A stretch of DNA of 36,882 bases from Thermomonospora catenispora (GTDB taxonomy: Bacteria > Actinomycetota > Actinomycetes > Streptosporangiales > Streptosporangiaceae), in NCBI RefSeq assembly GCF_006363815.1, contig NZ_RRYT01000029.1:1-36882 (forward strand). Reading direction: 5' to 3'. The position numbers and the translations under genes are program-made. Of the stretch, positions 1,522-32,430 are shown piece by piece. Below the pieces are notes generated by a model that worked only from the letters and a program-made list of their open reading frames with translations, ran no database searches and had not been told where the DNA came from. Within the stretch, counting starts at the first letter, position 1, and each line of letters starts with the position of its first letter.

Positions 1522-4029
1522 TCAGGAGGGCCGCTTCCAGAACGGACGGCGCTTGGCGGGCTGTGCGGGCGCGTCCTCCAGGTACGAGGTGAGGGTCTGG
1601 ACGGTCAGCGCCCACAGCTCCTCCAGGCGGGACTGCTGGGCGGGGTCGTCGGTGACCTCCAGGGCCTGCACCAGGGTGAGGAGGGGCTCGGCGGGGAGGC
1701 CGGCGAGGCGGGCCGTGTCGACCAGGCCGCGCAGGCGGGTGCGCAGGTCGGACAGGTGCCGCCAGCGTTCCGGGGCGGAAGCGTCGGCGGCGGCGGTCAG
1801 GTGCTCGAGCTCCCGGCCGATCAGCCGACGCACTTCGTCCCGGTCGGGGATCGCGCCTCCGCCGGGTGCGGCGGGGCCTCCCGCGAAACCTCCGATGCGG
1901 CGGAAGAACGGCTGCTGACCGCCGTGGACGGGAGGAACGGGCGGCGGAGCGGACGTGCTTCCCGGCGGGGGCGGAGTGGGCGCGCCGCCCGGCGGGGGCG
2001 GAGGAGGCGCGCTCTGCGGGCTGTAAGGAGGCGGAGGCGCGCTCTGCGGAGGCGGCGGGGCGGCGGGGGCCGTCCGAGGCCGGGCCGCCCGCCGGCGCGC
2101 CCGGGGCTTCTCCATGGGAGGCAGGTCCCAGGTCGCGGTCTGCTCCCAGCCCGCGGGCCGCTCCACCGGCTGGATGACGCGGTGGGTTGGCCCGCCCTCG
2201 GCGACCTGGCGGCTGTCGACGGCCACGAAGGCGGTGAAGCGGCACAGGACGTTGAAGCGCAACGAGGTCTCGACGATGCGGCGCTCCAGGTCGGGCAGGC
2301 CGGCGACGGCGTAGCGGTCCTCCAGGTCGCGCAGATGGGCTCGGGCCCAGATCGGGGCGAGGACGGCGGAGCGGGCGACGGTGGCGGCGGCGTCCCGCCG
2401 CCAGGCGGTGCCGTCGGCCGTGACGGCGCGGACGGTGACGCGGGCGTCGGCGGGCGCGCCGCGGTAGCGGCCCGAGACGGTGAGGGGGACGCCGGGGAAC
2501 AGCGCGCCCAGCCGGCGGGGGGTGATCGAGTCCGGGTCGACGTCCACGCCGGCCCACTCCAGGGAGACGCCGGTGAGCAGCGGGGCGCCGATGCGGTGGT
2601 GGATGTGCTCCATCGCCTCGTCCAGGCGGTCCTCGGACTCCACCAGCTCCAGCCGGCCGCGACCGGCCAGGGCGAGCCGCCCCAGGAAGCCGGCGTTGAC
2701 GGCCTGGTCGATGCCCACCGCGTGGACGCGCAGGCCGGCCAGGGAGGCGTCGATCCGGGCGAGGATGTGGTCCTCGTTGCCGACCTGGCCGTCGGTGATG
2801 AGCACCAGGACCCGGTCGCGGTCGGAGTCCTCGCCGCCGCCGAGCAGGGCGGTGGCCTTCTGGAGCGGGGGCAGCATCTCGGTGCCCCCCTCGGCCTCGA
2901 GGCCGGCCAGGAACTCCACGGCGCGGAACCTGTTGCGGTCGGTGGCCTGCGCCAGCTCGGTCCCCAGCTCGGGCGGGGCGGCCATGGTGTGATCGAAGGC
3001 GATGACCGCGAACCGGTCCCGGTCGGTGAGGGTGTCCACAATGCGGGCGGCCGCCCGGCGGGCCGCCACCATGCTCCAGCCGGCCATGCTGCCGGAGTGG
3101 TCCAGCACGAGCACCACGTCGCGCGGGCGGGGCGGCGCCTGCCCGGCCGGAGGGAGCACGGTGAGCGTGAACGTGCCGGGCCCTTCGGGGTCGTCGGGGT
3201 CGTCGGGCGACAGTGTCAGCGCCGCGGCCGTGTCGTCGGCGTGCGCGTACCTCAGCCGCAGGATGAAGTCGCGGTCGAGCCGCTCGCCGGGGTGCAGCCG
3301 CACGGTGGTGCGGCCGTCGTCGTCGCTCTCCTGGGCGACCGCGTGGAGGCTGGAGCGGATCTCCTCCAGCGACAGGCCCCCCGGGTCGATGCCGACCGAC
3401 AGCGACAGCCGTACTGGGCTGGGGAACCCGGGCAGCAGGACGGGCGGGCTGATGCGGGAGGCGTCGGGCACCAGGTCGGTGTCGGGGGCGACGCCGTCGC
3501 CGGCCTGCTCGACGGGCAGGGGGGCGCCGGGGATGTAGCGGGGGGCCGTCACCAGGGGGAACCGGAAGGTGGCGGCGTCGTCCTCGTACGGCAGCGGCTG
3601 GTGCAGGGTGAGCCGCACGGTCACCCGCTCGCCGGGCAGGATGTTGCCGACCCGCATGGTGAAGACGTCGGGCCGGTCCTCTTCGGCGATCGCGGCGCGC
3701 CGCCCGGCGGCCAGGGCCGCGTCGTAGTCGGCCCGGGCCTCTTCGCGCTCTTTGAGCGTTCCCTCCACCACCCGGTCGGCGGCCTCCATCCGCATGCGGG
3801 TGACGGCGGCGCGGTCGGGCAGCGGGAAGACGTAGACGGCCTCCACCGGCACGTCGAAGGGGTTGCGGAAACCCTGGGTGATCTCGACGCCGGCGACCAG
3901 GCCGTTGATGTCGGCGCGGACGTCCACGCTGTCCAGCGGGAGGTTCCCCCGCTCGGTGGAGAGGGCGCCCAGACCGGCGTCGGGCACCGAGGGCGTCGCG
4001 TCGGGCAGCGGCAGGATGGGCGTGCTCAT
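1522..4029 (-). CDS. VIT domain and von Willebrand factor A domain protein
   Basis: An 835-residue protein. Residues about 25-165 form a VIT domain (GVEITQGFRNPFDVPVEAVYVFPLP, then a TLKEREEARADYDAALAAGR-type segment). Residues about 303-480 form a VWA domain with an intact metal-ion-dependent adhesion site: D310-x-S312-G-S314, T383 and D413. A proline-rich spacer rich in APPPPQS-type units (about 655-720) precedes a helical C-terminus. No signal peptide or membrane helix is evident, so a cytoplasmic scaffold or metal-dependent binding role is likely; the partner is unknown. The ATG overlaps the stop of the upstream MerR gene as ATGA and has GGGAGG six bases ahead, so the two are translationally coupled. 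The VIT+VWA pairing is as in inter-alpha-trypsin-inhibitor heavy chains and many bacterial proteins. Confidence 0.9.
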   Translation of the reverse strand: MSTPILPLPDATPSVPDAGLGALSTERGNLPLDSVDVRADINGLVAGVEITQGFRNPFDVPVEAVYVFPLPDRAAVTRMRMEAADRVVEGTLKEREEARADYDAALAAGRRAAIAEEDRPDVFTMRVGNILPGERVTVRLTLHQPLPYEDDAATFRFPLVTAPRYIPGAPLPVEQAGDGVAPDTDLVPDASRISPPVLLPGFPSPVRLSLSVGIDPGGLSLEEIRSSLHAVAQESDDDGRTTVRLHPGERLDRDFILRLRYAHADDTAAALTLSPDDPDDPEGPGTFTLTVLPPAGQAPPRPRDVVLVLDHSGSMAGWSMVAARRAAARIVDTLTDRDRFAVIAFDHTMAAPPELGTELAQATDRNRFRAVEFLAGLEAEGGTEMLPPLQKATALLGGGEDSDRDRVLVLITDGQVGNEDHILARIDASLAGLRVHAVGIDQAVNAGFLGRLALAGRGRLELVESEDRLDEAMEHIHHRIGAPLLTGVSLEWAGVDVDPDSITPRRLGALFPGVPLTVSGRYRGAPADARVTVRAVTADGTAWRRDAAATVARSAVLAPIWARAHLRDLEDRYAVAGLPDLERRIVETSLRFNVLCRFTAFVAVDSRQVAEGGPTHRVIQPVERPAGWEQTATWDLPPMEKPRARRRAARPRTAPAAPPPPQSAPPPPYSPQSAPPPPPPGGAPTPPPPGSTSAPPPVPPVHGGQQPFFRRIGGFAGGPAAPGGGAIPDRDEVRRLIGRELEHLTAAADASAPERWRHLSDLRTRLRGLVDTARLAGLPAEPLLTLVQALEVTDDPAQQSRLEELWALTVQTLTSYLEDAPAQPAKRRPFWKRPS

Positions 4030-14327: not shown

Positions 14328-16349
14328 ATGGACGTGAAGCGCTATTTCCGCGGGCCGCTGCTGTGGGTCCTGCTGCTCGGGCTCCTGGTCACCCTGGTGG
14401 TGTGGGGGGCCGGCTCGGGCAACGGCTACAGGGATGCCGACACCTCGGAGATCATCTCAGACATCCGTGACAACCGGGTCCAGTCCGCGAAGATCATCGA
14501 CAAGGACCAGCGGATCGAGGTCACCCTCAAGGGCCGCCAGGCCGAGAAGAAGAAGGCCTCCTGGGTCAGCGGGCAGGGTCTGGAGCTGCAGAAGCTGCTC
14601 CAGCAGAAGGCCGACCAGGGACAGCTCCCCGGCGGGTACAACGTCGACGTCCCTCAGCAGAGCGTCTTCCTGAACCTGCTGTTCAGCCTGCTGCCGATCA
14701 TCATCGTGGTGCTGATCTTCCTGTTCATCATGAACCAGATGCAGGGCGGCGGCTCCCGGGTGATGAACTTCGGCAAGTCCAGGGCCAAGCTGATCACCAA
14801 GGACACCCCCAAGACCACGTTCGCCGACGTGGCCGGCGCCGATGAGGCGCTGGAAGAGCTCGAGGAGATCAAGGACTTCCTGCAGAACCCGGCCAAGTTC
14901 CAGGCCATCGGCGCCAAGATCCCCAAGGGCGTGCTGCTGTACGGCCCGCCCGGCACCGGCAAGACCCTGCTGGCCCGCGCGGTGGCCGGCGAGGCCGGGG
15001 TGCCGTTCTACTCGATCTCCGGCTCGGACTTCGTGGAGATGTTCGTCGGCGTCGGCGCCTCCCGGGTGCGCGACCTGTTCGAGCAGGCCAAGGCCAACGC
15101 CCCGTCGATCATCTTCATCGACGAGATCGACGCGGTCGGCCGGCACCGCGGCGCGGGCCTGGGCGGCGGTCACGACGAGCGCGAGCAGACCCTCAACCAG
15201 CTGCTGGTCGAGATGGACGGGTTCGACGTCAAGGGCGGCGTGATCCTGATCGCCGCCACCAACCGGCCCGACATCCTGGACCCGGCGCTGCTGCGTCCCG
15301 GCCGGTTCGACCGGCAGATCACGGTGGACCGCCCCGACCTGGAGGGCCGCAAGGGCATCCTCAAGGTGCACGCCCGCGGCAAGCCGTTCGCCCCCGACGT
15401 CGACCTGGACGTGATCGCGCGGCGCACCCCCGGCTTCACCGGCGCCGACCTGGCCAACGTGATCAACGAGGCGGCGCTGCTGACCGCCCGGGCCGACCGC
15501 AAGCTCATCGACATGGACACGCTCGAGGAGGCCATCGACCGGGTGATGGCCGGTCCGGAGCGCAAGACCCGGGTGATGTCGGAGACGGAGAAGAAGATCA
15601 TCGCCTATCACGAGGGCGGTCACGCGCTGGTGGCGCACGCGCTGCCGAACGCCGACCCCGTGCACAAGGTGACGATCCTGCCGCGCGGCCGGGCGCTGGG
15701 CTACACCATGACGCTGCCGATGGAGGACAAGTTCCTCACCACCCGTTCGGAGATGCTCGACCAGCTGGCGATGCTGCTGGGCGGCCGGACGGCCGAGGAG
15801 CTGGTCTTCCACGAGCCGACCACCGGCGCGGCCAACGACATCGAGAAGGCCACCACCCTCGCCCGCAACATGGTCACCGAGTACGGCATGAGCGAGCGGC
15901 TGGGCGCCCGCAAGTTCGGCTCCGGCCAGGGCGAGGTGTTCCTGGGGCGGGACGTCGGCCACGAGCGCGACTACTCCGAGGAGATCGCCTCGGCCATCGA
16001 CGACGAGGTCCGTCGGCTCATCGAGGCGGCCCACGACGTGGCCTGGGAGATCCTGGTCGAGTACCGTGACGTTCTGGACGAGCTGGTGCTCCAGCTGATG
16101 GAGAAGGAGACCCTCTCCAAGGAGCAGGTGCTGGAGATCTTCGCGCCGGTCCGCAAGCGGCCCAAGCGCAACTCCTACACCGGCTACGGCAAGCGCCTGC
16201 CGTCCGAGCGTCCCCCGGTGCTGACGCCCAAGGAGCTGGCCCTGATGGGTCCCAAGGACGTTCAGGACCTGCCGGGCGGGTCCGACCTGGCCCAGGGCAA
16301 CGGCCAGGGCGGCGCCGACCACCAGTCCGCCGAACCCTCCGAGAGCTGA
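14328..16349 (+). CDS. ftsH: ATP-dependent zinc metalloprotease FtsH
   Basis: A 673-residue membrane AAA+ protease that degrades misfolded membrane and some cytosolic proteins. Two membrane helices (about residues 10-28 and 113-134) enclose the periplasmic-side domain. The AAA module has Walker A GPPGTGKT (206-213), Walker B IIFIDEID (261-268) and the second region of homology [11 protein letters not shown] (321-331). The protease site is HEGGH (428-432), and the third zinc ligand is the Asp in [15 protein letters not shown]. The C-terminal tail is hydrophilic and Gly/Gln/Ser-rich. An AAGGGG ribosome-binding sequence lies rather far upstream of ATG 14328. The stop is two bases before the TTG of folE, so ftsH and folE are probably cotranscribed, as in Mycobacterium. 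Confidence 0.97.
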
Positions 16350-16351
16350 TC

Positions 16352-17938
16352 TTGACCCTTCCGTACGACGAGGACGCATCGCTCGATCGCAGGCTCCCCC
16401 GGTTCGACCACGAGCGCATCGAGCGGGCGGTCCGCGAGATCCTGATCGGGATCGGGGAGGATCCCGACCGCGACGGCCTGCGGGAGACCCCCGCCCGGGT
16501 CGCGCGCGCCTTCGCCGAGCAGTTCGCCGGCCTGCGCCAGCGGCCCGAGGACGTCCTGAACAAGGTGTTCGAGGCCGACCACGACGAGATGGTCCTGGTC
16601 AAGGACATCGAGGTGTACTCCACCTGCGTGCCGAGCCGGCAGACCGTCAACGCCGTGGGCGGCCGCAGGCGCGCCGCCGACGTGCGCGTCGGCGACGAGC
16701 TGTACACCCTGGTCGAGGGCGAGGTGCGCACCACGACCGTCACGCAGATCTCCGCCCGCAGGACGCGGGAGCTGGTGGAGGTCGTCACCGAGAAGGGATC
16801 GTTCACGGTCACGCCCGACCATCCGGTGGCCACCCCCGAGGGCTGGCGGGAGGCCGGGGACGTCGCCGGCCTGTTCATCGAGTGGACGCCCGTGCGCAGG
16901 CTCGCCCGCCGGCGGCCGACGATCGTCTACGGCCACGACTTCGGGTACCTGATCGGGGCGATCTGCGCGGACGGCACCGTCGACGACGGCGAGGTCCGCC
17001 TGATCGTCACCGAGCGGGAGTACGCCAAGAAGTTCGCCGAGGCGGCCCGGCGGTCGATGGGGCTGGAGGCCTCGATCGAGGCCGTGCCCGAGGGCTCCGC
17101 CGAGCCGGAGGCCTCCGGGTACCGGGTGCGGGTGGCCTCCTCGTATCTGGCGGATCTGGTGCGCCAGTACGTCGGCGGGGACGCCGCCCGCGGGCGGCGG
17201 CGCTTCCCGCGGGTGGTGCTGCGGGACCGGGAGACGTTCGGCGGTTTCCTGGAGGGCTGTCTCGACGGGGACGGCCGGCGGTCGGCGCGCCCCCACGGCT
17301 CCGCCCTCGATGGGAACGTTCCGTTCCTGGAGGATCTGGGACAGCTCGTCGGCGTGCGGTTCGCCCCGTCGACCCCCGGCGGGGCGGCGCTGTGGACGGC
17401 CGACGCCTGGTTCCGCAAGCACGGGTTCCCCGCCCACTACGAACGCCCCTCCCGGCTGGTGGAGTCGCAGTGGGTGAAGGTGCTCGAGGTGCGGCCGATC
17501 CGCGCCACCGGGAGCAGGCCCTACACCGTCTACAGCTTCACCTGCGACCCGCACCCCACGTTCCTGATCGGCGGGCACCTGACGCACAACTGCGAGCACC
17601 ACCTGGTCCCGTTCCACGGGCTGGCGCACGTCGGCTACACCCCCAACGCGAAGGGGCAGATCACCGGGCTGTCCAAGCTGGCCCGGCTGGTGGACGTCTA
17701 CGCCCGGCGCCCCCAGGTGCAGGAGCGGCTGACCAGCCAGATCGCCGACGCGCTGATGCGGATCCTGGAGCCGCGCGGCGTGATCGTGGTGATCGAGGCC
17801 GAGCACCTGTGCATGACCATGCGCGGGGTGCGCAAGCCCGGCGCCCGCACCGTCACCTCGGCGGTGCGCGGCGACTTCAGAGAGCACGCCGAGACCCGCG
17901 CCGAGGCGATGTCCTTGATCCTGGGCCGTTCGTCCTGA
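16352..17938 (+). CDS. folE: GTP cyclohydrolase I interrupted by an in-frame intein
   Basis: A 528-codon frame encoding a FolE precursor. Residues 1-91 (through VKDIEVYST) and 414-528 (from [16 protein letters not shown]) are the two halves of a 206-residue FolE, the normal family length. Between them lies a 322-residue intein. FolE converts GTP to 7,8-dihydroneopterin triphosphate, the first folate step, as a cytoplasmic zinc enzyme. The zinc ligands are Cys and His of CEHH and the Cys in [12 protein letters not shown]; the intein sits immediately before the first of these, so an active enzyme requires splicing. The start is TTG 16352, two bases after the ftsH stop. The homologous N-terminus ([20 protein letters not shown]) supports this start. 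The reading frame is uninterrupted, so this is not a pseudogene. Confidence 0.95.
16625..17590 (+). mobile_element. Intein with LAGLIDADG endonuclease motifs inside FolE
   Basis: 322 residues from Cys1 ([13 protein letters not shown]) to Asn322 (GGHLTHN), followed by the extein Cys+1. Block A is CVPSRQTV with RVGDELYTL. Block B is T63-x-x-H66 in [11 protein letters not shown]. Blocks F and G are [21 protein letters not shown] (split here as [10 protein letters not shown] and [11 protein letters not shown]), with penultimate His321 and terminal Asn322. All residues for class 1 splicing are present. The central region has two LAGLIDADG-like motifs, [10 protein letters not shown] (108-117) and [10 protein letters not shown] (208-217), about 100 residues apart, both keeping the catalytic Asp (116 and 216), so a functional homing endonuclease is possible. 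Base composition resembles the host, suggesting long residence or transfer between high-GC relatives. Confidence 0.93.
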
Positions 17939-18038: not shown

Positions 18039-18893
18039 ATGACCAGTGCCGTTCCCGGGCTGCCCGCTCCAGGGCGTTGCCTCGTCATGGGCGTGGTGAA
18101 CGTGACCCCGGACTCCTTCTCCGACGGCGGGGCGTGGTTCGACCCCGACAAGGCCATCCGCCACGCGCACGACCTCATGCACGAGGGCGCCGACCTGATC
18201 GACGTGGGCGGGGAGTCGACCCGGCCCGGCGCGCAGCGGGTGTCGCTGGAGGAGGAGATGCGCCGGGTGATCCCGGTGATCGAGGCGCTGGCCGCCGACG
18301 GGATCCCGGTGAGCGTGGACACCATGCGCGCCGAGGTCGCCGAGGCCGCCGTCGAGGTCGGCGCGAAGCTGATCAACGACGTCAGCGGCGGGCTGGCCGA
18401 CCCGGACATGGCCCGGATCGTGGCGGATGCGCGCGTGCCGTACGTGGTCATGCACTGGCGCGGGCACAGCAGCGACATGTACCGCCGGGCCGAATACCAG
18501 GACGTGGTGCGGGAGGTCCGCGACGAGCTGCGCGCCCGGGTGGACGCCGTGGTCGCCCAGGGCGTGGACCCGCGGATGATCGTGCTGGATCCGGGGCTGG
18601 GGTTCGCCAAACGCCCGCACCACAACTGGACGCTGCTGGCCCGGCTCGGCGAGCTGTCGACCGATCTGCCGATCCTGGTCGGGGCGTCCCGCAAGCGGTT
18701 CATCGGCAGGCTGCTGGCGGGCCCGGACGGGCATCCGCGGCCGTTCGTCGACTGCGACGACGCCACGGTGGCGATCAGCGCGCTGGCGGCGGCGGCGGGC
18801 GCCTGGGGCGTGCGGGTGCACCGGGTGCGGCCCAACGCCGACGCGGTCCGGGTGGCCGCCGCGATCCGAGCGGAACAGGAGGGACGGACATGA
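18039..18893 (+). CDS. folP: Dihydropteroate synthase
   Basis: A 284-residue TIM-barrel enzyme joining 7,8-dihydropterin pyrophosphate and p-aminobenzoate; the sulfonamide target. Signature segments are MGVVNVTPDSFSDGG (first family motif), LIDVGGESTRPGA (second family motif), VSVDTMRAEVAEAA, LINDVSGG, VLDPGLGFAKRPHHN and LVGASRKRFIG (pterin and pyrophosphate binding). ATG 18039 is supported by the short N-terminus before MGVVNVTP. The stop overlaps the next gene as ATGA, showing tight coupling within the folate operon. Confidence 0.96.
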   Translation: MTSAVPGLPAPGRCLVMGVVNVTPDSFSDGGAWFDPDKAIRHAHDLMHEGADLIDVGGESTRPGAQRVSLEEEMRRVIPVIEALAADGIPVSVDTMRAEVAEAAVEVGAKLINDVSGGLADPDMARIVADARVPYVVMHWRGHSSDMYRRAEYQDVVREVRDELRARVDAVVAQGVDPRMIVLDPGLGFAKRPHHNWTLLARLGELSTDLPILVGASRKRFIGRLLAGPDGHPRPFVDCDDATVAISALAAAAGAWGVRVHRVRPNADAVRVAAAIRAEQEGRT

Positions 18894-27173: not shown

Positions 27174-27245
27174 GGCGGGCGGATCAGCCGCGGCGCGCAT
27201 CCCGATCATGGCCGCGGGGCCGATGGCAGCGAAGGCGCCCGTTCC

Positions 27246-27272
27246 TAGCGTGGATCCCGTTCAGCCGAACGG
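27246..27272 (+). promoter_or_regulatory. Candidate ABC transporter promoter and leader inverted repeat
   Basis: TAGCGT (27246-27251) is a likely -10 box. Just after it CCGTTC-AGCC-GAACGG (27257-27272) forms a perfect 6-bp inverted repeat at the expected transcription start. GAGGAG then precedes the GTG at 27287. The repeat could be an operator or a small leader hairpin. Confidence 0.45.
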
Positions 27273-27286
27273 AACGAGGAGTCCAC

Positions 27287-28030
27287 GTGACCAGCACGCT
27301 CGTCTCCCCTCCGGCGGTCACGGCCGTCGGAGTCGACAAGGTCTACGGAACCGGCGACGCCGCGGTGCACGCCTTGCGCGGGGTCGACGTGGCGTTCGCC
27401 AAGGGCGCGTTCACCGCGATCATGGGCCCGTCCGGGTCCGGCAAGTCCACCCTGATGCACTGCCTGGCCGGGCTGGACACCGTCACCGCGGGCCGGATCA
27501 CCCTCGGCGACGTGGAGATCACCGCGTTGGGCGACAAGCGGCTGACCCTGCTGCGCCGGGAGCGGATCGGGTTCATCTTCCAGGCGTTCAACCTGCTGCC
27601 CACCCTGACCGCCGAGCAGAACATCCTGCTGCCGCTGGAGCTGGCCGGCCGCCGGCCCGACCGCGCCTGGTTCGAGCAGGTGGTGGACGTGCTGGGGCTG
27701 CGCGACCGGCTCGGGCACCGGCCGAGCGAGCTGTCCGGCGGGCAGCAGCAGCGGGTGGCGTGCGCCCGGGCGCTGGTGACCCGGCCGGAGGTGATCTTCG
27801 CCGACGAACCCACCGGCAACCTGGACTCCCGGGCCGGGGCGGAGGTGCTGGGGTTCCTGCGCACCTCGGTGCGGGAGCTGGGGCAGACGGTGGTGATGGT
27901 CACCCACGACCCGGTGGCGGCCTCCTACGCCGACCGGGTGGTGTTCCTGCGCGACGGCCGGATCGTCGACGAGCTGGCCGGGCCGACCCCCGACACGGTG
28001 CTGGACCGGCTCAAGGCGCTGGGGGGCTGA
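27287..28030 (+). CDS. ABC transporter ATP-binding protein (MacB/LolD type)
   Basis: A 247-residue ATPase. Walker A is GPSGSGKST, the Q-loop lies in FIFQAFNLLPTLTAEQNI, the signature is LSGGQQQR, Walker B is VIFADEPTGNLD and the switch His is in MVTHDP. The LDS and GNLD features and the FxAFNLLPTLTA segment are typical of MacB/LolD-type exporters working with FtsX-fold permeases. GAGGAG precedes GTG 27287. The permease gene starts three bases after its stop. It probably exports a peptide, antibiotic or lipid under control of the upstream two-component system; the substrate is unknown. Confidence 0.95.
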   Translation: MTSTLVSPPAVTAVGVDKVYGTGDAAVHALRGVDVAFAKGAFTAIMGPSGSGKSTLMHCLAGLDTVTAGRITLGDVEITALGDKRLTLLRRERIGFIFQAFNLLPTLTAEQNILLPLELAGRRPDRAWFEQVVDVLGLRDRLGHRPSELSGGQQQRVACARALVTRPEVIFADEPTGNLDSRAGAEVLGFLRTSVRELGQTVVMVTHDPVAASYADRVVFLRDGRIVDELAGPTPDTVLDRLKALGG

Positions 28031-28033
28031 CCG

Positions 28034-30544
28034 ATGCTGAAGATCTCCCTGGCGGGGCTGCGCGCCCACAAGGTCCGGATGCTGCTGACCGGGCTGGCGA
28101 TCATGCTGGGCGTCGGGTTCATCGCGGGCACGTTCGTGCTCACCGACAGCATGCAGGCGGGCATCGACGAGGAGTTCGCCGGGTCGGCGGGCAAGGTCGA
28201 CGTGGCGGTGCTGCCGAGCGAGGGCCGGCGGCTGCCCGCCTCGACGGTCCAGACGGTCCGGAGCGTCCCCGGGGTGACCGAGGTCCACGCGATGATCCGC
28301 GGCGACGCGGCGCTGATCGGCAAGGACGGCAAGGTCTACGGCGACCTGCCCACGGTCGGCCTGTCGGTCGCCCAGGGCCGGCTGCAGCGCTACGACATCG
28401 TCTCCGGCCGGGCCCCCGGCGCGCCCGACGAGGTCGTGCTGGAGGAGCGGACCGCCGAACGGAACGACTACCGGGTCGGCTCCACCGTCACCGTCGTGGA
28501 CGGCGAGGGCGCCCGGCACGCGTTCACCGTGACCGGGCTGGCCGACTTCGGCATCGACGACGAGGTGGGCTTCCGCGGCGCGGTCGGCTTCACCCCGGAG
28601 ACGGCCGTCCGCATCACCGGCCGGCCGGACCCGGTCGAGATCGACATCGCCGGGAGCGGCGATCCGCGGGAGCTGCGCGAGGCGGTCGCCGCGGCGCTCG
28701 GCGGCGACCACGAGGTGCTGGACGGGCGGGCGCTGGGCGACCGGCTGGCGGCCCGGGCGGGCGCCGACACCGCGATGATCCGGACCGGGCTGCTGCTGTT
28801 CGCGCTGGTGGCGATGCTGGTGTCGGCGCTGGTCATCTACAACACGTTCGCGATCCTGGTGGCCCAGCGGACCCGGGAGATGGCGCTGCTGCGCTGCGTG
28901 GGCGCCACCCGGCGGCAGATCTTCCTCGGGGTGCTGGCGGAGTCGGCGCTTCTTGGGCTGGTCGCCTCGCTGGCCGGACTGGGCCTCGGCGTCGCGCTCG
29001 CCGGCGGACTGCTGGCGTTGATCGGCGACGGCGCCGGCGGCATCCCCGGCGGGGACCTGACCTTGACGCCGCCGGCCGTGGCGGCCGGGCTGGGCGTCGG
29101 CGTGGCGGTGACGGTGGCGGCGGCGCTGCCCCCGGCCCGCTCGGCGACCCGGGTGGCCCCGGTCGCCGCGCTGCGCACCGAACGGGAGCCCGGCTCGGGC
29201 CGGTTCCGCCTGGGGTGGCCGCGGCGGATCCTGGCGGCGCTGCTGGGCGCGGCCGGACTGGCCTCGGCGGGCCTGGGGGCGCTGGCCCTGGAAGAGGGGC
29301 AGACGGCGATGTTCCTGGTCGCCGGGGGCGGCGCGCTGGTGTTCCTGGCGGTGATCGCGGTGATGCCCGCGCTGGTGCGGCCGCTGAGCCGGGCGACCGG
29401 GGCGCTGCCGGCCCGGCTGGCCGGGGTCCCCGGGCGGCTGGCGGTGTCCAACGCCTGCCGCGCCCCCCGCCGGACCGCCACCACCGCCGTCGCGCTGACC
29501 GTCGGGGTGGGGCTGATGAGCCTGTTCGCGGTGGTCGCCGCCGGAGGCCGGGCCACCGCCGACGCCCAGCTGGCCGAGCAGTTCCCGGTCGACTTCCAGC
29601 TCCGCGGCCAGTACGCCACCGGCGACCGGCCCCCGCACCCGGTGCCCGCCGCGGTCGTCGCCGAGCTGCGCGAGCGTCCGGAGATCGGCGAGGTCATGGA
29701 GCTGCGGATCCACCGGGAGTCCGCCGAGGGCGGCCGCACCGAGCACATCGGCGCGGTCACCCGCTCCGCCCTCGGCACGATGATCAGACCGACGGTGGAG
29801 AAGGGGTCGCTGCAGGACCTCACCCCCGGCACCGTCGCCGTCCAGGCCGACCGCGCCCGGGGCCGCGACGTCGGCGACACGGTGACGATCCCCACCCCGC
29901 GGGGCCGGGTCGAGCTCAGGGTCGTCGCCCTGTTCTCCGGCAACACCCCGCTGCCCCCGTACGTGGTGACGGAGGAGGACTTCGCCCGCCACTTCGGCCC
30001 CCGGGACGCCGAGGCGGTCTACCTGAACGCCGCCCCCGGCGTCGACCCCGACCGCGCCCTGGAGACGGTGGAGCGGATCATCGCCCCGTACCCGACCCTC
30101 AAGGTGGCCTCGACGGCGGGGTTGAAGGAGCGGTTCGACGAGGCCATCGACACCATCCTGGCGGTCGTCGGCGGGCTGCTGGGCCTGGCGGTGATCATCG
30201 CCCTGTTCGGCATCGCCAACACCCTCGGCCTGTCGGTGGTGGAGCGCACCCGCGAGTCCGCCCTGCTGCGCGCCCTCGGCGTCACCCGGGTCCAGCTGCG
30301 GCTGATGCTGTCGCTGGAGGCCGTCATCATGGCCGTCATCGGCGCCGTGATCGGCGTCGGGCTGGGGGTCGTCTTCGGCTGGGCCGCCACCGAGTCCATG
30401 GCGCCCTCCGCCGTGCCCGCCGTCCCCTACGCCCAGATCGCCGGCCTGGTGGCGCTGGCCGTCGTCGCCGGACTGGCCGCCTCCGTGCTGCCCGCCCGGC
30501 GCGCCGCCCGGACCTCCGTGGTGGAGTCCCTCGCCTACGACTGA
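28034..30544 (+). CDS. FtsX-like ABC transporter permease (MacB-type)
   Basis: An 836-residue permease with two FtsX/MacB halves. Each half has an N-terminal helix followed by an external domain (first: LRAHKVRMLLTGLAIMLGVGF then about 200 residues; second begins at SNACRAPRRTATTAVALTVG) and three C-terminal helices. The conserved FtsX element V-x-x-x-R-T-R-E-x-A-L-L-R occurs twice (VAQRTREMALLRCVGATRRQ and VVERTRESALLRALGVTRVQ). A central pair of helices joins the halves. It works with the ATPase upstream as a mechanotransmission-type exporter; as a fused permease it probably needs only one copy. The tail ends RRAARTSVVESLAYD, typical of the family. Confidence 0.94.
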   Translation: MLKISLAGLRAHKVRMLLTGLAIMLGVGFIAGTFVLTDSMQAGIDEEFAGSAGKVDVAVLPSEGRRLPASTVQTVRSVPGVTEVHAMIRGDAALIGKDGKVYGDLPTVGLSVAQGRLQRYDIVSGRAPGAPDEVVLEERTAERNDYRVGSTVTVVDGEGARHAFTVTGLADFGIDDEVGFRGAVGFTPETAVRITGRPDPVEIDIAGSGDPRELREAVAAALGGDHEVLDGRALGDRLAARAGADTAMIRTGLLLFALVAMLVSALVIYNTFAILVAQRTREMALLRCVGATRRQIFLGVLAESALLGLVASLAGLGLGVALAGGLLALIGDGAGGIPGGDLTLTPPAVAAGLGVGVAVTVAAALPPARSATRVAPVAALRTEREPGSGRFRLGWPRRILAALLGAAGLASAGLGALALEEGQTAMFLVAGGGALVFLAVIAVMPALVRPLSRATGALPARLAGVPGRLAVSNACRAPRRTATTAVALTVGVGLMSLFAVVAAGGRATADAQLAEQFPVDFQLRGQYATGDRPPHPVPAAVVAELRERPEIGEVMELRIHRESAEGGRTEHIGAVTRSALGTMIRPTVEKGSLQDLTPGTVAVQADRARGRDVGDTVTIPTPRGRVELRVVALFSGNTPLPPYVVTEEDFARHFGPRDAEAVYLNAAPGVDPDRALETVERIIAPYPTLKVASTAGLKERFDEAIDTILAVVGGLLGLAVIIALFGIANTLGLSVVERTRESALLRALGVTRVQLRLMLSLEAVIMAVIGAVIGVGLGVVFGWAATESMAPSAVPAVPYAQIAGLVALAVVAGLAASVLPARRAARTSVVESLAYD

Positions 30545-30558
30545 CGGAGGCGAGCGGG

Positions 30559-30564
30559 TACTCT
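30559..30564 (+). promoter_or_regulatory. Candidate -10 box for the DUF2520-panC-panD run
   Basis: TACTCT lies just after the permease stop and 40 bases before ATG 30605. No matching -35 is convincing. It would start the pantothenate transcript. Confidence 0.35.
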
Positions 30565-30604
30565 GATGGCCGTCCGGTACCCCCTAGCGAGGACTGGAAC
30601 GGTC

Positions 30605-31513
30605 ATGAGGTCTTCCGACGTGCCGTCCGTCGCGCCCGCGGACCGGCCCGCCCGGCTCGAGGTGGGCGTCGTGGGCGCGGGACGGGTCGGCACGACGCTG
30701 GGCGCGGCGCTCGCACTGGCCGGTCACCGGGTGACGGCGGCCAGCGCGGTGTCGGACGCCTCCCGGCGCCGGGTCGCCGAGCGGCTCCCCGACGCGGTGG
30801 TGGCCACCCCCCAGGAGGTGGTCGCCGGATCGGAGCTGGTGCTGCTGACCGTCCCGGACGACGCGCTGCCGGAGCTGGTGAGCGGTCTGGTGACGACCGG
30901 CGTCCCCGTGACGGGCAAGCTGCTGGTGCACACCAGCGGCCGGTACGGGGTGCAGGTGCTGGAGCCCGCCACGCGGGCGGGGGCGCTGCCGCTGGCGCTG
31001 CACCCGGTGATGACCTTCACCGGACGTCCCGACGACCTGGACCGGCTGGCCGGGATCTCGTTCGGGGTGACCTCGCCGGAGACGCTGCGGCCGGCGGCCG
31101 AGGCGCTGGTGGTGGAGATGGGCGGGGAGCCGGTGTGGATCCCCGAGGAGCGCCGCACCCTCTACCACGCGGCGCTGGCCGGCGGCGCGAACCACCTGGT
31201 GACGCTGGTGGCCGAGGCGATGGACCTGCTGCGCGCGGCCGGCGTCGCCGATCCCGCGCAGATGCTCGGACCGCTGCTGGGGGCGGCGCTGGACAACGGG
31301 CTGCGGCTCGGCATGAACGGCCTGACCGGGCCGGTCGCCCGGGGCGACGCGGGCACGGTCGCCGGGCACATCGCCGAGCTGTCCAAGGTCTCGGCCGAGA
31401 GCGCCCGCGCGTACGTGGCGATGGCGCGGCTGACCGCCGACCGGGCGTTGGACGCCGGGCTGCTCAAACCCGAGGACGCCGCGCGGCTGTTGGAAGTGCT
31501 GGCCGACTCCTGA
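30605..31513 (+). CDS. Rossmann-like and DUF2520 domain protein
   Basis: About 302 residues. The N-terminal Rossmann fold begins VGVVGAGRVGTTLGAALALAGH, a G-x-G-x-x-G nucleotide-binding loop, with ELVLLTVPDDALPELV following. The C-terminal DUF2520 helical domain includes HPVMTFTGRPDDLDRLAGIS, YHAALAGGANHLVTLVAEAMD and GLTGPVARGDAGTVAGHI. It resembles the F420/NADP oxidoreductase and ketopantoate-reductase-like families, and in actinobacteria it sits next to panC (for example Rv3603c). A role in supplying pantoate, replacing PanE, is an attractive inference that sequence alone does not prove. An in-frame ATG at 30566 would add 13 residues. Confidence 0.9.
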   Translation: MRSSDVPSVAPADRPARLEVGVVGAGRVGTTLGAALALAGHRVTAASAVSDASRRRVAERLPDAVVATPQEVVAGSELVLLTVPDDALPELVSGLVTTGVPVTGKLLVHTSGRYGVQVLEPATRAGALPLALHPVMTFTGRPDDLDRLAGISFGVTSPETLRPAAEALVVEMGGEPVWIPEERRTLYHAALAGGANHLVTLVAEAMDLLRAAGVADPAQMLGPLLGAALDNGLRLGMNGLTGPVARGDAGTVAGHIAELSKVSAESARAYVAMARLTADRALDAGLLKPEDAARLLEVLADS

Positions 31514-31566
31514 CGGCCTCGGCGCGCCCGGTGCGCCGGGGCCTCGAGCAGAAAGGGAAACCGTTC

Positions 31567-32430
31567 ATGACACCGGTCATCGCCCGGACCCGTGAGGAGC
31601 TGGCCGCCGCCCGCGCCCGGCTCCGCGGCACGGTGGCGTTCGTCCCCACGATGGGCGCGCTGCACGCCGGGCACCGGTCGCTGATCCGCCGGGCGCGGGA
31701 GCTGGGCGACGCGGTGGTGGTGAGCATCTTCGTCAACCCGCTGCAGTTCGGGCCGAACGAGGACCTGGACCGCTATCCCCGCACCTTCGACGACGACGTC
31801 GCGATGTGCGCGGCCGAGGGCGTGGACCTGGTGTGGGCGCCGACCCCGGAGGTGATGTACCCGGTCGACCCCCAGGTGCGGCTCAGCTCGGGCCGGATGG
31901 GCGCGATCGTGGAGGGCGCGGCCCGGCCGGGGCACTTCGACGGGGTGCTCACGGTCGTCATGAAGCTGTTCCACCAGGTCCGCCCGGACGTGGCGGTCTT
32001 CGGGGCCAAGGACGCCCAGCAGCTCGCCCTGGTCCGCCGGATGGTCGCCGACCTGGACGTGCCGGTGCGGATCGAGGCCGTCCCCACCGTCCGCGAACCG
32101 GACGGGCTGGCGCTGTCCAGCCGCAACCGCTACCTCTCGGACGCCGAACGGGCCACCGCCCGCCACCTGTCGCGCGCCCTGCGGGCGGGCGCCGAGCGGG
32201 TCGCCGACGGCCCGGCGGCCGTGCTGGAGGCCGCGCGGGCCGTGCTGGACGAGGCGACCCGGGCCGACCCCCCGCTGCACGTGGACTACCTGGTCCTGGT
32301 CGACCCGGCCACCTTCGAGGAGGTCGGCCGCGACCACGTCGGCGAGGCCGTGCTGGCCGTCGCCGGCAAGGTCGGCACCACCCATCTGATCGACAACACG
32401 CCCCTTCGGTTCGGCCCCCGGGAGAGCTGA
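31567..32430 (+). CDS. panC: Pantothenate synthetase
   Basis: A 287-residue pantoate-beta-alanine ligase making pantothenate with ATP in the cytoplasm. Motifs are [20 protein letters not shown] (the H-x-G-H nucleotidyl-transfer signature), [70 protein letters not shown] (the KMSKS-like position) and [19 protein letters not shown] 31567 has AAAGGGAAA upstream. The stop overlaps the ATG of panD (TGATG), coupling both pantothenate enzymes. Confidence 0.96.

Follow-up and report, generated by a model that had tools for sequence, protein, structure and literature searches.

A class 1 intein in the folE gene of Thermomonospora catenispora and a free-standing branch of its family associated with rewritten folE alleles

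In Thermomonospora catenispora, the folE gene for GTP cyclohydrolase appears to be interrupted by a 322-residue class 1 LAGLIDADG intein, inserted directly before the Cys of the FolE motif CEHH, and one branch of the same protein family has probably become a free-standing homing gene that lies behind folE in another genus and is tied to folE alleles rewritten at the insertion bond. We assign this explanation as a whole a probability of about 0.8. It is based on a stretch of 36,882 nucleotides (nt) of contig NZ_RRYT01000029.1, hereafter the window, and on comparisons with sampled genomes of the same phylum (feature coordinates in Table 1).

The folE open reading frame (ORF) occupies positions 16352-17938 of the forward strand as a single frame of 528 codons with a TTG start. 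Product residues 92-413 are non-FolE, and deletion of bases 16625-17590 brings both flanks together in one frame (...[19 protein letters not shown]...) to give a FolE of 206 residues. The initial annotation, drawn from the sequence of the window, had proposed just such an intein, beginning with Cys, containing a TxxH motif (here TPDH) and ending in HLTHN before the extein Cys; its coordinates and lengths proved exact on retranslation, as did the length of the product encoded by the joined flanks. The FolE parts match Pfam PF01227 with an E value of 1.2e-72, above the curated cut-off, three of four NCBIfam folE models also score above cut-off, and the CEHH motif with its Cys (Cys+1) aligns to solved GTP cyclohydrolases. 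We take Cys+1 to be a zinc ligand equivalent to Cys110 of the E. coli enzyme. The four other genomes of the genus all lack the insert: their two FolE halves adjoin in one open frame, with 83-91% (N half) and 92-97% (C half) identity to the window. The insert is also rare across the order, where a profile search of 200 genomes at E 1e-10 returned two matches, the window and genome G286 of the same family. The alternative that the extra segment is a normal FolE domain, which had been raised along with the intein proposal, fails on this distribution.

The domain order of the insert, with an endonuclease between the N- and C-terminal parts of a Hint domain, is that of class 1 LAGLIDADG inteins such as the Mycobacterium tuberculosis RecA intein (PI-MtuI), which share Cys1, TxxH, a His-Asn end, Cys+1 and a two-part Hint domain around the LAGLIDADG domain. 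All residues of the class 1 set are present in the insert. Inserts 58-61% identical to it occupy the same FolE bond in three other genomes, which argues that it did not arise by chance. Based on this anatomy, and on homology to relatives that include mini-inteins lacking the endonuclease, we conclude that the window insert is a class 1 LAGLIDADG intein. The FolE family differs from other class 1 inteins in its host protein, in its position before CEHH, and in an additional fixed Cys at block F, found in all 31 parsed members.

The family is not confined to the window. Cys1, Thr63, His66, Cys307, His321 and Asn322 are present in each of the 31 parsed FolE inteins, the window included, and in the distant intein L267, and Asp116 and Asp216 of the endonuclease are present in all 15 parsed full-length members, again including the window. 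Inteins of 324 residues at the same bond are found in an Actinophytocola metagenome-assembled genome (MAG) and in Crossiella sp. SN42, both Pseudonocardiaceae. Across sampled genomes of Crossiella's family, 30 of 249 carry a FolE intein, in every case with the intein end joined to the FolE Cys; half of these 30 possess the endonuclease and the other 15 are mini-inteins of 163-181 residues. A further FolE intein, L231, was missed by the parser; by eye, it ends in HLTHN and has CSYG in place of the first catalytic Asp. In the window's own family, 16 of 341 genomes gave a match at E 1e-3, of which two are confirmed FolE inteins, that of the window and a 192-residue mini-intein without endonuclease at the same bond in G286; the remaining 14 matches are short and weak. 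The intein L267, of 333 residues and at the same bond, comes from a genome (G1461) of another class of the phylum, which suggests that the FolE insertion is old or has been widely transferred. Searches of phages and plasmids by tblastn, at E values up to 0.01, yielded no relative of the window intein, and none was confirmed in viral contigs; a phage carrier of the intein is for this reason unsupported.

The residues flanking these inteins vary. Five full-length inteins of Crossiella's family (L223, L228, L229, L230 and L232) lie in flanks resembling the altered folE alleles described below, reading YSQ, YSF or YSM with CEHHLL, and the 15 mini-inteins of that family retain YST with CEHHLV.

The window copy itself may be past its homing phase. 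Its branch is short for the Hint domain (0.19) and very long for the endonuclease (1.08), and Asp116 and Asp216 are still present. In comparison with the Actinophytocola intein (L030), the Hint part has a ratio of nonsynonymous to synonymous substitution rates (dN/dS) of about 0.26 and the endonuclease one of about 0.55; comparison with L031 gives a weaker contrast (0.49 and 0.68). The endonuclease is thus probably evolving fast towards the mini-intein state seen in relatives, and the long branch, together with a mini-intein in the same family, fits an intein that no longer homes. Cys307 is a separate peculiarity. A Cys at block F lies outside the usual class 1 catalytic set, and here it may aid splicing or serve, next to the zinc-site Cys, as a switch responsive to metal or redox state. 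One folE match was found in the window genome, by a search that detected second folE-like genes in two congeners, and a PF02649 search for FolE2, positive in five of 14 control genomes, found none in the window genome; folate supply in this strain would therefore probably require FolE splicing.

When a class-wide sample of 394 genomes was searched, seven matched: the window and six genomes of a single genus, g85, which we presume to be Streptomyces-like from its gene order. In none of those six does the relative lie within FolE; it forms a distinct gene, or a remnant, downstream of a folE that is intact. Within g85, a free-standing homologue is present in 44 of 392 sampled genomes (hereafter carriers), in every case with a match directly behind folE, and an ftsH motif precedes folE in 61 of 62 loci. 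Single frames spanning at least 311 of 324 model positions remain in 26 of the 44 copies, one of which has an inner stop. The 20 intact copies analyzed have starts of their own (ATG in 14, GTG in 6), preceded in 17 by a Shine-Dalgarno-like stretch. The interval from the folE stop to this start is 36-82 nt in 19 copies, usually 60-80 nt, and 231 nt in the remaining one. In all 20, each of the six residues Cys1, Thr63, His66, Cys307, His321 and Asn322 has been replaced, so that these proteins are unable to splice by known chemistry; Asp116 and Asp216 are retained in all 20. Among these copies, median dN/dS reaches 0.282 in the Hint part, against 0.156 in the endonuclease, which is thus still under selection. 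The proteins end near the intein end, and L034, the only one scanned, hits only LAGLIDADG_3 in Pfam.

On a tree rooted with the distant FolE intein, the free copies group together as a single clade (support 100/100). With an intein as the outgroup, the free form is most simply derived from an intein, and placements of the free branch inside versus beside the actinomycete FolE inteins gave p values of 0.26-0.53 in the approximately unbiased test (p-AU). A convergent neighbor, DUF3180-like and named by eye, was recognized by motif in 28 of 50 carrier loci, a count in which some genomes appear twice; among non-carriers it was recognized in 10 of 30 loci with altered alleles but no gene and in 31 of 66 others, and in these it is found a short distance downstream of folE. 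One genome, G735, also holds an inverted copy of an inner stretch of its nearby free gene within a folK-like frame (locus L197, 4910-5590, reverse strand); the two are identical at the protein level by eye, which reflects either a genuine inverted duplication or an error of assembly.

The free genes are associated with unusual folE alleles. Standard alleles in g85 read V[YF][10 protein letters not shown][RH]G. The standard site V[YF]ST-C occurs in none of the 44 folE genes of carriers. Altered sites, among them IVSL, LVSF, LTSQ and LMAT with CEHH[LM]L, are found in 40 of these genes; the remaining four, whose free copies are all broken, read VMSS or VLSS with LVPF. In a survey of folE in 110 genomes, 14 of 45 altered alleles are followed by the free gene (eight full copies) or a remnant of it (six fragments), as against none of 16 intermediate and none of 49 standard alleles. 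A Fisher test of 14/45 altered against 0/65 other alleles gives 9e-7, a value to be read knowing that the survey over-represents altered alleles and that related genomes within it are not independent. Two intermediate alleles outside this sample, L257 and L259, each have a remnant.

The rewritten end of folE has a history different from that of its upstream neighborhood. Trees were made for 20 carriers, 21 genomes with altered alleles lacking the gene and 20 others, from 1080 nt of ftsH and from folE positions -114 to +336 around the bond, minus 24 nt at the bond itself. The altered state requires 12 changes on the ftsH tree and one on the folE tree, and a single altered clade is rejected on ftsH (p-AU 2e-7). 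Identity in ftsH is nearly indifferent to allele (carriers-standard 0.915, carriers-carriers 0.918, standard-standard 0.922), and this absence of a gap between carriers and standard genomes roughly holds within upstream folE as far as -145. Between -114 and the bond, by contrast, carriers have a third-codon-position identity to one another of 0.53-0.57, compared with 0.76-0.81 for standard alleles. Such a pattern would be expected if the end of folE had been replaced repeatedly, with the edge of the replaced tract some 115 nt upstream of the bond. Carriers also have more codons ending in A or T in the 48 nt around the bond than do altered alleles without the gene (p 1.2e-4).

From these patterns we infer splicing, cutting, a target site, resistance and transfer by homing in the following way. 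The 528-residue precursor would splice through Cys1, Asn322 and Cys+1 to yield the 206-residue FolE, whose CEHH site would exist only after ligation. Most likely, the target of both forms of the element is folE without an intein, which they would cut close to the STCEHH codons; repair with a carrier chromosome as template would then copy the element. The intein would shield its own chromosome by splitting the target site. One branch of the family would have lost its splicing residues and become a separate gene behind folE, with its nuclease core retained; the distance from the bond to this gene is some 410 nt, made up of 339-342 nt of folE and a gap of usually 60-80 nt. This free gene would shield its chromosome differently, by a repair that brings in a rewritten, presumably uncuttable folE end, and its later loss would leave altered empty alleles and remnants.

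A closely similar history has been described in yeast. The WHO genes of Torulaspora and Lachancea, as presented in the available part of Coughlan et al. 2020 (PMC7282813), are non-splicing intein relatives that lie downstream of FBA1 and replace its 3′ end, so that 5′ and 3′ trees conflict. The free copies in g85 resemble WHO and HO, as far as that portion of the article describes them, in having an intein-like endonuclease without splicing residues behind a host gene, a rewritten 3′ end whose history is unlike that of the 5′ neighborhood, and decaying copies. They differ in residing in a bacterial chromosome, in their association with folE rather than FBA1, in the absence of tandem clusters from the stretches examined, and in the survival of true inteins at the same gene in their relatives. 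Moreover, blastn and tblastn searches of 146 loci (carriers and others, some genomes twice) revealed no WHO-type folE fragment downstream, but only matches of 23-49 nt at E values of at least 2.5e-4 and no protein match, which weighs against the comparison, and no C-terminal zinc finger of the WHO kind was found in the ends of the 20 free proteins or in the Pfam scan of L034. For these two reasons we do not file the free copies as WHO genes.

Nevertheless, we favor, with somewhat less confidence than the overall explanation, the view that a bacterial intein shed splicing to become a homing element of the WHO kind with a recoded, uncuttable folE end, as true inteins and mini-inteins persisted at the same bond. 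This view would imply, with the same reserve, that all stages still exist within one phylum: full intein, decaying intein, mini-intein, free gene, broken free gene and recoded empty allele. The comparative pattern of the free genes also fits in part the intronless homing of T-even phages, where, according to the accessible sections of PMC2988022, free-standing Seg and Mob endonucleases lie between conserved genes, target sites hundreds of bases away in a neighbor and cause co-conversion of flanks. The phage enzymes covered there are of the GIY-YIG or HNH type, whereas those of g85 are intein-derived LAGLIDADG proteins in bacterial chromosomes.

A more modest explanation would accept an ordinary intein in the window, and would regard the free genes as relics of folE inteins after a chance duplication and the altered alleles as an old neutral split of the genus. 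Several results lean in its direction and weigh against homing. Only broken or partial copies are present in 18 of the 44 carriers, and no gene lies behind 31 of the 45 altered alleles, so that the two are often separated. On either tree the gene has a scattered distribution (12 changes for folE, 13 for ftsH), although this is as expected from frequent loss. Distances among free genes follow those of ftsH (rho 0.68) more than those of folE (0.55), which suggests that descent also plays a large part in their history. The signals in folE are likewise imperfect: its excess divergence shrinks downstream of the bond and is gone at +186 to +215, the segment from -264 to -120, which likewise requires 12 changes, is not long enough for a single clade to be rejected (p 0.28), the low G+C content at third codon positions (GC3) of carriers extends to a lesser degree elsewhere in folE, and carrier GC3 is lower in seven of 11 rough sister pairs, equal in two and higher in two, a weaker signal than in the comparison of groups. 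Relics, however, would not be expected to include so many nearly full-length single frames, nor an endonuclease that is more constrained than the Hint part and keeps both catalytic Asp residues in every intact copy, and a simple vertical split is what the ftsH test rejects. We therefore consider this explanation unlikely.

Far less probable is that the free protein was domesticated as a DNA-binding regulator that neither cuts nor homes. Bacterial regulators derived from LAGLIDADG proteins do exist, for example WhiA (mentioned in the available part of PMC7282813), and the constant position behind folE would suit such a role. However, a regulator present in so few of the 392 genomes, with many copies broken and with catalytic Asp residues nonetheless preserved, would be peculiar. 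Slightly less probable still is that the window insert no longer splices, leaving FolE inactive or the insert as a tolerated loop. Its profile scores could be taken in this way, and they are also the weakest point of the intein assignment: the profile search that the initial annotation had recommended did touch intein, Hint and LAGLIDADG families, but the insert alone falls below the curated cut-off of every one of them. Only weak matches to solved structures were obtained (PI-MtuI at E 0.18, other mini-inteins and the Pho RadA intein), the family profile matched no solved structure, and a PF14890 search of the window's own genome gave no match, again a limit of the profile. Even the Actinophytocola intein reaches only 28.2 bits against Pfam Intein_splicing PF14890 (residues 23-324, E 1.9e-6, cut-off 35.8), and it passes the cut-off for LAGLIDADG_3. 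Because all catalytic residues are present in the window insert, we read its low scores as a limit of the profiles. Opposed to a loss of splicing are the intact splice residues of the window and the other 30 parsed inteins, the single folE match in a genome without FolE2, and the short Hint branch.

The initial annotation had suggested that the insertion site might be new or rarely described. No report of a FolE intein or of its free-standing form was found by the searches made of open-licence literature, although prior notice is possible, for example in InBase or subscription journals; the site is no one-off, given its frequency in Crossiella's family. The available excerpt of PMC3322345 includes a GTP cyclohydrolase gene and places inteins in other genes, and PMC5050341, judged by its passages, was discarded as a folE paper, the term being an author name only. 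FolE extends the range of intein hosts to a folate-pathway enzyme that is split at its metal site. Within one family, and apparently at the same bond, there would be two forms of protection, the site being either interrupted or rewritten. If true, this would be a bacterial counterpart of the WHO/HO history of yeast, and the step from intein to free homing element, so far argued from yeast, could be tested directly in bacteria with natural pairs of folE alleles, one presumably cuttable and the other not.

Table 1. Features of the folE locus in the window (positions count from the first letter of the 36,882-nt stretch)
Feature	Positions	Strand	Basis or remark
FolE N-extein	16352..16624	+	91 codons, TTG start, directly after ftsH
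FolE intein, 322 residues	16625..17590	+	begins CVPSR, ends HLTHN; family homology
Cys1, N-terminal splicing nucleophile	16625..16627	+	31/31 parsed FolE inteins; aligned column Gly in 20/20 free copies
Hint splicing domain, N-terminal part, residues 1-95	16625..16909	+	TIGR01445 E 0.0048, Vint E 0.018, both under cut-off; alignments
Block B TPDH, Thr63 and His66 (TxxH residues 63-66)	16811..16822	+	sequence, family alignment
Putative LAGLIDADG endonuclease domain, about residues 103-258	16931..17398	+	PF14528 E 0.001, under cut-off; domain missing from mini-inteins
First LAGLIDADG motif [12 protein letters not shown] with Asp116	16940..16975	+	family alignment
Second LAGLIDADG motif [13 protein letters not shown] with Asp214, Asp216	17237..17275	+	family alignment
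Hint domain, C-terminal part, residues 262-322	17408..17590	+	alignment
Block-F Cys307	17543..17545	+	31/31 parsed FolE inteins and distant L267; replaced in 20/20 free copies
His321-Asn322, C-terminal splice residues	17585..17590	+	sequence, family alignment
FolE C-extein and stop	17591..17938	+	ORF, FolE profiles
Cys+1, first C-extein residue, Cys of CEHH	17591..17593	+	alignment; zinc role presumed
ftsH, upstream neighbor	14328..16349	+	named by eye, no profile
folP-like gene, downstream neighbor	18039..18893	+	named by eye from DSFSDGG motif, no profile

Two further genes of the window may be mentioned. Positions 27208-32430 of the forward strand hold a 1740-residue frame whose only Pfam match at E 1e-5 is to Pantoate_ligase, over residues 1459-1731; the true start of the gene may differ from that of the frame. 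An ordinary protein with VIT and VWA domains is encoded at positions 1522-4029 of the reverse strand.
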